Below are positions 6,998 through 39,094 of a stretch of 64,000 bases of DNA, piece after piece. Each line of letters begins with the position of its first letter. Position 1 is the stretch's first letter. The notes beneath the pieces are model-generated. The model was not told the origin of the DNA, did not search any database, and saw only the letters and a list, made by a program, of their open reading frames with translations. Both the position numbers and the translations under genes were made by a program. Source of the DNA: Hydrogenophaga sp. (GTDB lineage Bacteria; Pseudomonadota; Gammaproteobacteria; Burkholderiales; Burkholderiaceae_C). The stretch lies in the NCBI RefSeq assembly GCF_011390835.1, contig NZ_JAABRQ010000021.1:1-64000 (forward strand). The letters run 5' to 3'.

Positions 6998-9418
6998 ATG
7001 CACCGCCTATTGAAATATTTGTGCCTAGGCGTGTTGACGCTCACCCTGATCGGACTGGTCAGTCCAGCCTGGGCGCAGGTCTGCGGCGCGCCGGGCAAGG
7101 ACGGTGTCAGCTTTTCCCGTAACAGCTACTTCCCTGGTAGCGGCACCGCTGGCGCCGGGTCAAGCGTGGTGAACTTTGGTGCTGCACGAATCGACGCCAA
7201 CGCGGTATCGACGGCATTTGGGGCAGGGGACCTGGCCCTGGTGATTCAGATGCAGGACGCGCTGGTCAATAACGCCGACTCGGGCGCCTATGGCGACGGC
7301 GTCGCCGGGGACCCTGCCACCGGCTCGACCAACCTGCGCAGCACGGGCTTCTACGAATTCAGACGTGTGGTGGCCGCCAGCGGCGGTTCGATCACGCTGG
7401 ACACCCCCCTAGTCAACACCTACACCACCGCCAACGCCGACACCACTTCTGGCAACCGCCGCTTCCAGGTTGTGCGCGTGCCCCAGTTCGCCTCCGTCAC
7501 ACTACCGGGCGGCATCCTGAATGTCACACCCTGGAACGGCAGCACCGGGGGCCTGATGGTGATCGATGCGTCGGGCCTACTGAACCTCAACAGCACCACA
7601 ATCAACGCCAATGCCGTCGGCTTTCGCGGCGGTGGCTCTCAAAATGCCACCGTCATCTCTGGTAGCAACGTCACCACCTATGCCAGCGCCCAGGTAGCTG
7701 GAACACCACCCGCTAATCTTGGTGCAGCCAAAGGTGAAGGCATCGCGGGTACGCCCCGCTTCGTGCGCTCCGACACGGTCATCAGCAACGGCTACAGCGG
7801 TATCAACCTCGGCACATCGGGCTACGCGAACGGATTCGATCTCGCCCGCGGTGCGGCAGGCAACGCCGGCGGCGGCGGCACACAACACAACGCCGGTGGC
7901 GGCGGCGGAGGCAATGCAGGTACTGGCGGTCGGGGCGGCAATACCTATGCCAACTTCAGCGGCACCAACACAGGCAGCTGCGTTCAATTCGGTCCTGGCT
8001 TTTTCGCTTGTGGCGGCGATGGCGCTCGAGCCATGGGTGGCTTTGGCGGACTGGGTGTGACGCCCACCGCTGCCCGCCTGTTCCTTGGCGGCGGCGGCGG
8101 CGCTGGCGAAAGCAACAACGCCAACGACAACCCCACCGTGGCGCAAGGCAGCGGCGGCAACGGCGGTGGTCTGATCTTTGTCCGGGCCCGAAGTGTCTCG
8201 GGCAGTGGTGTGTTCAACGCCAACGGTGGCATTGGACAGCCGGGCGGGCGCGACGCGGCGGGTGGCGGCGGCGCCGGGGGAACGGTGGTGCTGATCACTG
8301 AATCGACTTCGGTGCCAGGCCTTCAGGTCAACGTCTCAGGCGGTGCGGGCGGCAACACGGGTCTACCGCTTCGAGGCAACGAAACTCAGGGTACGGGCGC
8401 CGGTGGCGGTGGTGGCGCCTTCATCCGCTCGACCGGGGTGACCGTCGGTGCGACCCAGATCGCAGGCGGCGCTTCCGGCGTCAACGTACCGGTGAATGGC
8501 GTGTCCAACACCTTTGGTGCCTCTGGTGGCGCAGGCGGTGTGGCGAACGTCAATTTCTCCGGCACCCAGTTTCCCAATCCCACCAGCTGCTTCCCGCAGC
8601 TCACCGTGCTCAAGAGCACGACAACGCCCACGCGCACCGTGCCCACCGACAGCACGGCAGGTTATGTGGTCTCGGTTCGCAACGCCGTGGGTGTCGGTGT
8701 GGCGGTGGGCGTAGCCGTAACCGACGTGCTGCCCGCACCGTTCACCTTACAAAGTAGCACCGCCACGGTGGCGCTGGGCGCAGGCTCTCTAGGCCCTTCG
8801 CCTGCCCCGGCCACAGGCACCTCCACCGTGACCATCGCCACACCTGGCAGCAGCACTGCCACCAGCTTTTTCATCCCGCCAGGTGGCGAGGTCACACTCA
8901 CCTTCAATGTCAGCCTGAACGGGGCTGCACCCGGCACCTACCAGAACCCGGCCGACACCCTGTACAGCGATCCCACGCGATCGGTGGCGGCGGGCGTCGT
9001 CACGCCCGGTGGCGGCTACGCCAACGGCGGCGGCACAGCAGGCGGCTCCAACTACGCCTCGGGGGCCAGCATCCAGGAAGACGTGTCGATCACCGCGTCC
9101 ACCTTGCTGACCATCACCAAAACCAATGCCGTCGGCACCGTGACCGCCGGCACCACCACCAGCTACACCATCACGGTGGCCAACGGTGGACCGTCTGCCG
9201 CAGCCAACGCCGTGCTCAGAGACCCGGCCGCCACTGGCCTCAACTGCACGGCTGTGAGCTGCTCCGTCAGCGGCGGAGCAGCGGTCTGCCCGGTAGCACC
9301 CGCGCTGAGCCTCGCCAACCTGCAGTCGCCTGTCGGCGTGACCATTTCAAGCTTCCCGGCCAACTCCAGCCTGAGCTTTGTGGTGACTTGCGGCGTGACC
9401 GCCACCGGCGTGCCGTGA
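6998..9418 (+). CDS. Secreted glycine-rich DUF11 repeat protein (large)
   Basis: Signal peptide MHRLLKYLCLGVLTLTLIGLVSPAWAQ; Gly-rich core; DUF11-like repeats at the C-terminus; similar C-terminus to 4332-5864. Confidence 0.8.
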   Translation: MHRLLKYLCLGVLTLTLIGLVSPAWAQVCGAPGKDGVSFSRNSYFPGSGTAGAGSSVVNFGAARIDANAVSTAFGAGDLALVIQMQDALVNNADSGAYGDGVAGDPATGSTNLRSTGFYEFRRVVAASGGSITLDTPLVNTYTTANADTTSGNRRFQVVRVPQFASVTLPGGILNVTPWNGSTGGLMVIDASGLLNLNSTTINANAVGFRGGGSQNATVISGSNVTTYASAQVAGTPPANLGAAKGEGIAGTPRFVRSDTVISNGYSGINLGTSGYANGFDLARGAAGNAGGGGTQHNAGGGGGGNAGTGGRGGNTYANFSGTNTGSCVQFGPGFFACGGDGARAMGGFGGLGVTPTAARLFLGGGGGAGESNNANDNPTVAQGSGGNGGGLIFVRARSVSGSGVFNANGGIGQPGGRDAAGGGGAGGTVVLITESTSVPGLQVNVSGGAGGNTGLPLRGNETQGTGAGGGGGAFIRSTGVTVGATQIAGGASGVNVPVNGVSNTFGASGGAGGVANVNFSGTQFPNPTSCFPQLTVLKSTTTPTRTVPTDSTAGYVVSVRNAVGVGVAVGVAVTDVLPAPFTLQSSTATVALGAGSLGPSPAPATGTSTVTIATPGSSTATSFFIPPGGEVTLTFNVSLNGAAPGTYQNPADTLYSDPTRSVAAGVVTPGGGYANGGGTAGGSNYASGASIQEDVSITASTLLTITKTNAVGTVTAGTTTSYTITVANGGPSAAANAVLRDPAATGLNCTAVSCSVSGGAAVCPVAPALSLANLQSPVGVTISSFPANSSLSFVVTCGVTATGVP

Positions 9419-36145: not shown

Positions 36146-38527
36146 ATGCAGGTGTTCACCCCCCAGGGCTGGCTGGAAAAGCTGCTGGCCGGCCTGCAGC
36201 GCGCTTCGCTGCAGTTGCTGATCAAGCCGGTGTTTTCGCCGCGCTTCTCCATCGGCTTTCAGCGCCGCTGGCTTTCGCTGCTGGCCAAGCTCTCGCTGCC
36301 GGTGCCGCGTGCCGCTGTGGTCACTGCCGACCAGGTGGGCGGCGTGCCGGGCGAATGGCTGCGCCCGCGCAAACACAACCACGCCACGCCACCTGCCACC
36401 GTCCTCTACCTGCACGGCGGCGCCTTCTGCATCGGCTCACCGCGCACCCACCGCTCGCTCACCGCGCGCCTGAGCCTGGCCAGCGGCCTGCCGGTGTTTG
36501 CACTCGACTACCGGCTAGCGCCCGAGCACCCCTACCCCGCCGCGCTGAACGACGCGCTAGCCGCCTTCCGCGCGCTGCGGGTTGATGGCCCGGTGATTGT
36601 TGGTGGCGACTCGGCCGGCGGCGGCCTGGCGCTGGCGCTGGCCATGGCCTTGCGCGACGCGGGCGAGCCCGGGCCGGCCTCGTTGTTGCTGCTCTCGCCT
36701 CTGGGCGATGCGGTCACACCCGATCTGCTGCCGGTGCCACCGCCCGGCGAAGCCATGCTGAGCACCGCCTGGGCCCAAGCTTGCGTGGACTTTTACCGCG
36801 GGCAATACAGCGCGGCAGAGCCCGGCATCTCCCCGCTGCGTGGCGACCTGAGCGGCCTGCCGCCCACGCTGATCCAGGCCGGCACCGACGAGCTGCTGCA
36901 CGACCAGGCGCTGGCGCTGGAGACCGCGCTGCAGGCCGCCGGCGTGCACACCCGCGGCGAGATCACACAACACCGCTGGCATGTTTTCCAGCTGCACGGT
37001 GGCGTGCTCAAGAGTTCGGACGAAGCCATCGTGCGCCTGGCCAGCTTTGCCCATGCGCACCTGCCGCGCGAGTCTGAAGGCGTGACCGAGCATGAGGTGG
37101 TCATCCTCGGCGCCGGCATGTCGGGTCTGTGCATGGCCATGCAGCTGCAACGCGCGGGGCAACACGACTTCGTCCTGCTGGAAAAACAGCCCGGCCTGGG
37201 CGGCACCTGGTGGGACAACACCTACCCCGGCGCGCATGTGGACGTGCCCTCGCCGGTCTATTCGTTCTCCTTCGCGCCGAACCCAGGCTGGACGCGCCGC
37301 TTCGCCGGCGCCCGAGAAATCCAGACCTACATGCAGCAGCTCGCCGAGCGCCACGGCCTCACCGAACGCATCCGCTTCAGCACCCGACTCGCCGAAGCGC
37401 GTTTTGACGAAGCCAGCGGCCTCTGGCACTTCACCACCGAAGACGGCCGCCGGCTGCGCTCGCGTTTTTTCGTCTGCAGCACCGGCCCGCTCAACCAGCC
37501 GCGCTGGCCCGACATCCCCGGCCTGGACGGCTTCCAGGGCCAGCGCCTGCACTCCGCGCGCTGGGACCACAGCCTGCCGCTGGCGGGTCAGCGCGTGGCT
37601 GTCATCGGCACCGGCTCCACCGCTTCGCAGCTCATCGCCCCGGTGGCCGAGCAGGCCAAGCAACTGTTTGTGTTCCAGCGCACCGCCAACTGGGTCATGC
37701 CCCGGCTGGACCGTCGCTACGGCGCCCTCGACCGCGCGCTGGCGCAGTCCACGCTCTACAACCGCGGCGTGCGCTGGTGCTGGATGCACATCCTCGAATG
37801 GGGCCGCCGCGGCTTCGACGAAGGCACGCTGGCGCGAAAGGGCATGCTCAAGACCGCTGCCATGCACCGCCAGCGCCAGGTGCCCGATGCCACGCTGCGC
37901 GCCCAGCTCACGCCCGACTACCCGCTGGGCTGCAAGCGCATCATTTATTCCAACGACTTTTTCCCCGCGCTGGGCCAGCTCCACGTGGCGCTGGTCACCA
38001 CGCCCATCGAGCGCTTCACACCCACCGGCATCGTCACCAGCGACGGCCAGGCCCGCGAAATCGACGTGCTGGTCTGCGCCACCGGCTTCGACACCCAGCA
38101 TTTGTTGTCCAGCATCACCGTCACCGGGCGCGGCGGGCAGACGCTGGCGCAGGCCTGGCAGGCCGGCCCCGAGGCCTACCAGGGCGTGAGCGTGGCCGGT
38201 TTCCCCAACCTCTTTCTCATGCTTGGCCCCAACACCGCCACCGGCCACACCTCCACCCTGCTCTTCATCGAGCCCGAGGTGCAACACGCCATCGCCTGCA
38301 TGCAGGCGGTGCGCGCCGGCGGCCAGCGCAGCATCGAGGTCAGCGAGGACGCCATGGCCACCTACAACCGCGAGCTGCAAGCCCGCCTGGGTGGCTCGGT
38401 GTGGGGCCAGTGCCGCAGCTGGTACCGCATGAACGACGGCAAGATCGTGGCCATCTTTCCCGGCTTCACCGCCGAGTATGTGAGCGCCGTGCGCCAGCCC
38501 GACTTGAGCCGCTACCGCTTTGCATGA
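36146..38527 (+). CDS. Fused protein: alpha/beta hydrolase (HSL-type esterase) + flavin-containing Baeyer-Villiger-type monooxygenase
   Basis: Esterase: LYLHGGAFCIGSPRTH, GGDSAGGGLALALA, GTDELLHDQ, HRWHVF. FMO/BVMO: EVVILGAGMSGLCMA, GLGGTWWDNTYPGAHVDVPS, FQGQRLHSARWD, VAVIGTGSTASQL, VCATGFDT. One uninterrupted 793-aa frame. Confidence 0.93.
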   Translation: MQVFTPQGWLEKLLAGLQRASLQLLIKPVFSPRFSIGFQRRWLSLLAKLSLPVPRAAVVTADQVGGVPGEWLRPRKHNHATPPATVLYLHGGAFCIGSPRTHRSLTARLSLASGLPVFALDYRLAPEHPYPAALNDALAAFRALRVDGPVIVGGDSAGGGLALALAMALRDAGEPGPASLLLLSPLGDAVTPDLLPVPPPGEAMLSTAWAQACVDFYRGQYSAAEPGISPLRGDLSGLPPTLIQAGTDELLHDQALALETALQAAGVHTRGEITQHRWHVFQLHGGVLKSSDEAIVRLASFAHAHLPRESEGVTEHEVVILGAGMSGLCMAMQLQRAGQHDFVLLEKQPGLGGTWWDNTYPGAHVDVPSPVYSFSFAPNPGWTRRFAGAREIQTYMQQLAERHGLTERIRFSTRLAEARFDEASGLWHFTTEDGRRLRSRFFVCSTGPLNQPRWPDIPGLDGFQGQRLHSARWDHSLPLAGQRVAVIGTGSTASQLIAPVAEQAKQLFVFQRTANWVMPRLDRRYGALDRALAQSTLYNRGVRWCWMHILEWGRRGFDEGTLARKGMLKTAAMHRQRQVPDATLRAQLTPDYPLGCKRIIYSNDFFPALGQLHVALVTTPIERFTPTGIVTSDGQAREIDVLVCATGFDTQHLLSSITVTGRGGQTLAQAWQAGPEAYQGVSVAGFPNLFLMLGPNTATGHTSTLLFIEPEVQHAIACMQAVRAGGQRSIEVSEDAMATYNRELQARLGGSVWGQCRSWYRMNDGKIVAIFPGFTAEYVSAVRQPDLSRYRFA

Positions 38528-38587
38528 ACCGGCCGGCTTGACGTGCATCAAGCACCGCCCCAGGGCAGCCGGGTAAGCTCGCCCCCC

Positions 38588-39094
38588 ATGCACACCGACA
38601 GCCCCACCCTCACCGCCCCGGCCAGCGCCGGCCTGGACTGGTCGCCCGCCCTGTCAGTTGGCGACAGCCGCATGGACCACACCCACGAAGAGTTCGTGAC
38701 CATGCTCAACCGCCTGCTCGCCATCCCGCAGGATCAGCAACTGCCCCTGTACCGCGAATTCCTGGCTCACACAGTGGAACACTTCGCGCAGGAAGAGCGC
38801 TGGATGCTGGCCACCGGTTTTTCTGCCGACAACTGCCACGCCTCGCACCACGCCACGATCCTGGAAACCATGAGCGCGGTAATTCCGCACTATCAGAACG
38901 ACGACCCGGAGATCATCACCCGCCTGGCCGAGGCGCTGGCCGAGTGGTTTCCGCAACACGCCGCCAGCATGGACGCCGGCCTGGCGCAACACCTCAAAGC
39001 AGTGGGCTTCGACACCACCACCGAAACCGTGGCCGACCCTTCGGAGATCCGGCCTGCGAGCATCAGCGGGTGCGGCAGCGTGAGCTGCAGTTGA
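38588..39094 (+). CDS. Bacteriohemerythrin
   Basis: LSVGDSRMDHTHEEFVTMLNRL, HTVEHFAQEERWM, CHASHHATILE (His-rich diiron motifs). Confidence 0.9.
   Translation: MHTDSPTLTAPASAGLDWSPALSVGDSRMDHTHEEFVTMLNRLLAIPQDQQLPLYREFLAHTVEHFAQEERWMLATGFSADNCHASHHATILETMSAVIPHYQNDDPEIITRLAEALAEWFPQHAASMDAGLAQHLKAVGFDTTTETVADPSEIRPASISGCGSVSCS

Follow-up and report, generated by a model that had tools for sequence, protein, structure and literature searches.

Background

Several described routes of ketone degradation use a Baeyer-Villiger monooxygenase (BVMO) followed by an esterase. In Gordonia TY-5, acmA and acmB supply the two activities in that order and a ketone is converted to an alcohol and an acid (PMC6215540). 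SadD with SadA/SadB represents the same succession, acting on 2-ketones in subterminal alkane and 2-ketone degradation (PMC12753306), and a BVMO plus an esterase have been proposed to act in this order in Thalassolituus (PMC6304351). The Acm and Sad activities reside in separate proteins. Here we describe a gene of Hydrogenophaga sp. that appears to encode both activities in a single polypeptide. It occupies positions 36146-38527 of the forward strand of the window, the whole 64,000-nucleotide stretch that was analysed (contig NZ_JAABRQ010000021.1, positions 1 to 64,000).

An esterase and a BVMO in one reading frame

The gene is a single ATG-to-stop frame of 793 aa with no internal stops. Its product has two Pfam matches, Abhydrolase_3 at aa 86-282 (E 3.6e-48) and FMO-like at aa 317-522 (E 6.3e-18). 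Searches of the PDB matched aa 35-307 to the esterase 9izt (E 1.2e-51) and aa 307-761, in two stretches, to the steroid monooxygenase (STMO) 4ap3 (E 1.7e-73). These PDB scores, together with 33 full-length homologous fusions, place the domain matches beyond chance. Judged by its sequence, the protein combines, in one chain, an N-terminal HSL-type (Abhydrolase_3) esterase with a C-terminal type I BVMO. A complete esterase and a complete flavin monooxygenase had been claimed for this frame in a first-pass annotation made from the letters alone; the Pfam, PDB and motif results agree, and every motif listed there was recovered in its place. The features of the gene are as follows.

36146-38527, + strand: esterase-BVMO fusion coding sequence, 793 aa, single open frame; AlphaFold2 pLDDT 92.2, pTM 0.89
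36146-36325, + strand: N-terminal helical (cap-like) part of the esterase, aa 1-60; model helices 9-25 and 36-49
36401-36991, + strand: Abhydrolase_3 (HSL-type) esterase domain, aa 86-282; Pfam PF07859, E 3.6e-48
36413-36427, + strand: HGGAF oxyanion-hole motif, aa 90-94; HGGA invariant in 34 aligned fusions
36605-36619, + strand: GDSAG nucleophile elbow, aa 154-158, with predicted catalytic Ser156; invariant in 34 fusions, aligned with EstD11 Ser144
36890-36892, + strand: Glu249, likely catalytic acid, in GTDE (aa 246-249); aligned with the EstD11 Glu, Asp in two fusions
36980-36982, + strand: His279, predicted catalytic histidine, in HRWH (aa 276-279) and WHVFQ; invariant in 34 fusions
37058-37087, + strand: inter-domain linker, ~aa 305-314; sequence and length variable, a loop in the model
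37088-38524, + strand: type I BVMO domain, aa 315-793; PDB 4ap3 E 1.7e-73, Foldseek 4aos E 7e-43, TM-score 0.80 by target length
37109-37126, + strand: GAGMSG (aa 322), FAD-binding Rossmann motif, from the motif search
37199-37243, + strand: GGTWWDNTYPGAHVD (aa 352), BVMO1 fingerprint, from the motif search; Asp366 aligned, against 4ap3, with STMO Asp71, presumably an active-site residue
37532-37567, + strand: FQGQRLHSARWD (aa 463), BVMO2 fingerprint, from the motif search
37607-37624, + strand: GTGSTA (aa 488), NADPH-binding Rossmann motif, from the motif search
37937-37939, + strand: Arg598, aligned, against 4ap3, with what we take to be the active-site Arg (STMO Arg342, Arg337 of phenylacetone monooxygenase, PAMO); PLGCKR conserved in the fusions
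38078-38092, + strand: ATGFD motif (aa 645), from the sequence and the aligned fusions

The esterase domain scores 164.6 bits against PF07859 (cut-off 25), and both the HGG and the GxSxG motifs that mark HSL-type esterases are present. By alignment its catalytic triad is Ser156, Glu249 and His279. Enzymes of the EstD11 type use a Ser-Glu-His triad, and the EstD11 alignment makes Glu249, rather than Asp248 of the GTDE motif, the likely catalytic acid. The domain shares HGGA, GDSAG and the aligned Ser/Glu/His with the bacterial HSL-type (family IV) esterases 9izt, EstD11 and E40. However, it differs from these in being joined to a BVMO, and it falls under the cut-off of every NCBIfam HSL subfamily model (GESAG, 184.5 of 430 bits; GTSAG, 131.3 of 380; LipP1, 114.4 of 350).

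The type I BVMO fingerprint has four elements (PMC9044951), which were searched for, in order, as GxGxx[GA], [GA]GxWx4[FY]P[GM]x3D, FxGx3Hx3W[PD] and GxGxx[GA]. All four are matched in the published order at aa 322, 352, 463 and 488, and likewise in 32 of the 33 other fusions. The third is a strict match with D at the W[P/D] position, as had first been read. A catalytic Asp/Arg dyad has been described for BVMOs (PMC9044951); Asp366 and Arg598 align with Asp71 and Arg342 of STMO in the comparison with 4ap3. The fold, both BVMO fingerprints and equivalents of these two residues are shared with STMO (4ap3), PAMO (1w4x) and cyclohexanone monooxygenase. Unlike those enzymes, the fusion BVMO carries an N-terminal esterase; the domain is ~478 aa long and only ~28-30% identical to them in structural alignment, and its mid-region (aa 520-579) matches poorly. 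Its length resembles that of EtaA/EthA-like BVMOs, a tentative lead to its subclass. It is also under the cut-off of NF045818, the model for neopentalenolactone D synthase (PtlE-type BVMO), at 199.8 of 1100 bits.

AlphaFold2, run on a 76-row alignment, gave a confident two-domain model (mean pLDDT 92.2, pTM 0.89). For a two-domain chain, this predicted pTM suggests a defined relative orientation of the domains. When the model was compared with the PDB by Foldseek, all 50 matches listed were BVMOs (best E 7e-43, TM-score ~0.8 by target length). Of all segments in the aligned fusions, the linker varies most. It is short, as first described: the two domain profiles are separated by 8-16 aa, with a median of 9, in 41 fusion rows.

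Conservation and distribution

One scan of GTDB genomes collected 68 related loci (L numbers below denote loci outside the window), among which are 33 full-length one-frame fusions, 62-89% identical to the window protein. Their hosts are Hydrogenophaga, Methyloversatilis, Rhizobacter, Aquabacterium, Arenimonas/Lysobacteraceae and further Burkholderiales. HGGA, GDSAG and the His of WHVFQ are invariant in the 34 aligned fusions, while position 249 is Glu in all but two, which have Asp. Loss of catalytic residues, a possibility raised by the first-pass annotation, was thus looked for in the alignment and not seen, the catalytic Ser and His being invariant. Ratios of dN/dS against five of the nearest homologues are 0.17-0.37 for the esterase and 0.24-0.44 for the BVMO. 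Purifying selection acts on both domains, and the fusion is, from these comparisons of sequence, old and conserved.

The first-pass annotation had asked how widespread the architecture is; within Hydrogenophaga the gene is present in 17 of 67 genomes, in 14 of them at full length. Across the family the gene was found in ~14 of 351 sampled genomes. Being carried by so few genomes, it is an accessory gene. In one Methylibium metagenome-assembled genome (L040, 4079-5910) the fusion is split into several frames; the contig name gives a coverage of 2.36, and the broken copy is probably an assembly error.

Other fusions and unfused pairs

Four further types of esterase/BVMO fusion were found, with both domain orders and several BVMO subclasses. 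Single chains in the reverse order, BVMO-esterase, occur on Burkholderia glumae plasmids and in B. stagnalis and B. cenocepacia, as well as in two genomes from a second genus within the window's family (L166, L167). The example from B. glumae BGR1 plasmid bglu_2p (WP_012732758.1; L160, 4812-10412) combines the same two domain families with both motif sets intact. It differs from the window fusion in domain order, is ~41% identical to it per domain, and lies in an operon of AraC, aldehyde dehydrogenase, GMC oxidoreductase and fusion, in which, by annotation, the GMC oxidoreductase gene overlaps the fusion start by 14 bases. Dozens of B. glumae plasmid records carry this fusion, and its sole annotation there is 'alpha/beta hydrolase'.

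At L126 (6647-9199) and L127 (6316-8868) an HSL esterase is joined to a full-length PAMO-like BVMO, which scores 650 bits to 1w4x in phmmer over aa 312-837. The strict BVMO2 fingerprint is unmatched in both, its His being replaced (FEGPTYITGRWP). This protein is a candidate for a ketone-to-alcohol step carried out by one polypeptide. In Paraconexibacter antarcticus (L157, 1648-4215, minus strand) an STMO-like BVMO lies upstream of a GESAG-type esterase in one chain, and here too the strict BVMO2 fingerprint is unmatched, being degenerate (FRGEIHRTSSWP). The genome contains >20 BVMO or esterase matches; among the large open frames checked beside BVMO matches in actinobacteria and other genomes, L157 was the only fusion. 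At L101 an esterase is fused to a BVMO with all four fingerprint elements, and this BVMO, on our reading of its sequence, resembles EtaA.

Unfused BVMO genes are also found beside esterases. Among 28 such loci sampled across the phylum, 12 have an HSL esterase directly adjacent on the same strand, nine with the BVMO first and three with the esterase first. A Pseudomonas-like operon has the order AraC, BVMO, esterase and short-chain dehydrogenase/reductase. The two activities are genetically linked as in acmAB-type pathways, here by fusion and in relatives by operons, in both orders.

Phylogeny and number of joinings

The window-type fusions group together as a single clade whether the esterases (support 100/99) or the BVMOs (100) are compared. 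The tree of esterases carries a bias, since it took in only esterases near BVMOs; in it the window-clade esterase groups with the operon esterase L120. Stand-alone BVMO genes found in Nitrosospira, Herminiimonas and other betaproteobacteria lie nearest to the window clade. Those of Nitrosospira, an ammonia oxidiser, are 44-47% identical to the fusion domain (L045, L046, L047, L051). An operon as direct ancestor of the window clade is not supported, as the esterase-to-BVMO operons L110, L112 and L122 group elsewhere in the BVMO tree. The BVMOs of the Burkholderia fusions fall within or beside a clade of BVMO-to-esterase operons, a placement consistent with their derivation from the merging of such an operon. 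The PAMO-like and STMO-like fusions are placed far off and have mutually opposite domain orders. From these placements and orders we deduce that the domains were joined at least four times, and probably five, although unsampled relatives could change the exact count.

Two BVMO genes without a complete attached esterase, L163 and L164, also fall within or beside the window-type fusion clade (inside it in one BVMO tree). L163 (7010-8509) is 61% identical to the fusion domain and has no HSL esterase; it branches close to the clade's base with weak support (93/60). Downstream of L163 and convergent with it is a gene of another alpha/beta-hydrolase-like kind (8500-9294, minus strand). L164 (2963-4402), whose contig is short and whose genome is incomplete, has only an esterase remnant (from aa 252 of the query onward) and one in-frame TGA. 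It groups with two fusions (98/91), and this nested position indicates that its esterase has been lost or split off.

Genomic context

The window gene is flanked by argH and by genes for an HDOD protein, a hemerythrin-domain protein, UPF0114, an LPG-synthase-like protein and a cardiolipin-synthase-like protein. A Pfam-type domain search of the window showed no catabolic genes among these neighbours, in keeping with the first-pass annotation, whereas the Burkholderia reverse-order fusion sits in a catabolic-looking operon. The neighbours are common only to the closest relatives (L003, L004), and the flanks otherwise differ from genome to genome; a conserved catabolic neighbourhood for the clade was therefore rejected. 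The hemerythrin-domain gene (38543-39094), an oxygen-binding protein beside an oxygen-using enzyme, starts 15 bp downstream of the fusion and is kept adjacent only in L003 and L004. Fragments resembling argH lie just upstream of the fusion start at L005 (5776-5949) and L038 (5695-5964), where full argH is absent, and may be a trace of how the gene moved. The fusion is the sole FMO-like protein in the 3.67-Mb genome, which encodes several other Abhydrolase_3 proteins. No sigma-70-like promoter was found upstream of the fusion, in a search that is uninformative at this GC content.

Proposed function and alternatives

The protein is fairly probably a bifunctional catabolic enzyme, in which the BVMO makes an ester (or lactone) from a ketone and the attached esterase hydrolyses it to an alcohol and an acid. 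NADPH would reduce the FAD of the C-terminal domain, the peroxyflavin would insert oxygen beside the ketone carbonyl, and the N-terminal serine esterase (Ser156-Glu249-His279) would cleave the resulting ester. In one chain the two activities would be present in equal amounts and close together, and removal of the ester would make the sequence irreversible. Sequence and model show the domain identities and catalytic residues, and comparative genomics supports the functional link between the activities. We infer the reactions, their order, any channelling and the substrate, for which a hydrophobic ketone, open-chain or simple cyclic, is the likeliest candidate. The alcohol and aldehyde dehydrogenases of the Burkholderia and Pseudomonas-like operons fit a route from secondary alcohol to ketone, ester, alcohol plus acid, aldehyde and acid. 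The repeated and conserved linkage suggests that the two steps function as a unit. Coupling of the two steps had been proposed at the outset, and the four further fusion types and the operons, in both orders, argue in its favour.

Several observations weigh against this interpretation. The distribution of the window gene is patchy and its neighbourhood lacks catabolic genes; the closest solo BVMOs, in Nitrosospira and Herminiimonas, have no adjacent esterase; and the 12 of 28 adjacent pairs include several related genomes and so are not independent events. The BVMOs of L163 and L164 occur without an esterase, so this domain may act alone.

It is possible, though on the unlikely side, that fusion merely sets stoichiometry and co-expression within the same pathway, with the ester diffusing freely and no channelling or kinetic advantage. 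The poorly conserved linker, the differing domain orders and the operons that pair both activities without fusion all speak for such an arrangement. Against it, though not decisively, the pTM predicts a fixed domain arrangement, and the gene remains fused across many genera.

A role in broad detoxification, in which the flavin domain would oxygenate S or N, as do some EtaA-like enzymes, beside a promiscuous esterase, seems distinctly less probable. Class B flavoproteins are promiscuous, and the gene is a lone accessory gene without catabolic neighbours, encoding the only FMO-like protein of its genome. However, conservation extends to both BVMO fingerprints and to the catalytic Asp/Arg, and alcohol and aldehyde dehydrogenases accompany related fusions and operons.

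We give little credence to the reverse order of reactions, by which the esterase would unmask an acylated substrate and the monooxygenase would then oxidise the resulting keto alcohol or keto acid. Nothing in the sequence sets the reaction order, and the esterase is N-terminal, HSL-type and weakly matched by PF10340 (steryl acetyl hydrolase), but domain order varies among the fusions and in the known two-gene systems the BVMO acts first and the esterase second (PMC6215540, PMC12753306).

A frameshift or missed stop merging two adjacent genes, an artefact that the first-pass annotation had flagged, can be dismissed with near certainty: the broken copies lie in other genomes (L040, and L164 with its TGA) and none in the window, while 33 homologues elsewhere keep the same frame, including the full-length copies in 14 of the 67 genomes of the genus.

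Implications

Literature searches that did not extend to subscription papers and preprints found no account of a natural protein in which esterase and BVMO are fused. The chemistry, both families, the two-gene versions and, under a generic name, the Burkholderia fusions in RefSeq were already known; the recurrence of the esterase-BVMO linkage is new here. We tentatively suggest, at somewhat less than even confidence, that these proteins are a convergent, recurrent class of self-contained ketone-cleaving enzymes, which arose by at least four to five joinings, in both orders and from several BVMO subclasses, because holding the ester beside the esterase is selectively beneficial through channelling or relief of product inhibition.

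In progesterone degradation the hydrolase acting after the BVMO has not been identified (PMC12239570), and the PAMO-like fusion of L126 and L127 is a candidate for such pathways. Biocatalysis groups have built BVMO-hydrolase cascades by hand, and natural fusions would offer these ready-made in a single chain. For most BVMOs no native role is established; a natural fusion points to ester hydrolysis as the following step and confines the search for substrates to ketones that yield esters acceptable to its esterase. Fusions that arose repeatedly, in both orders, also provide natural replicates for asking whether tethering helps.
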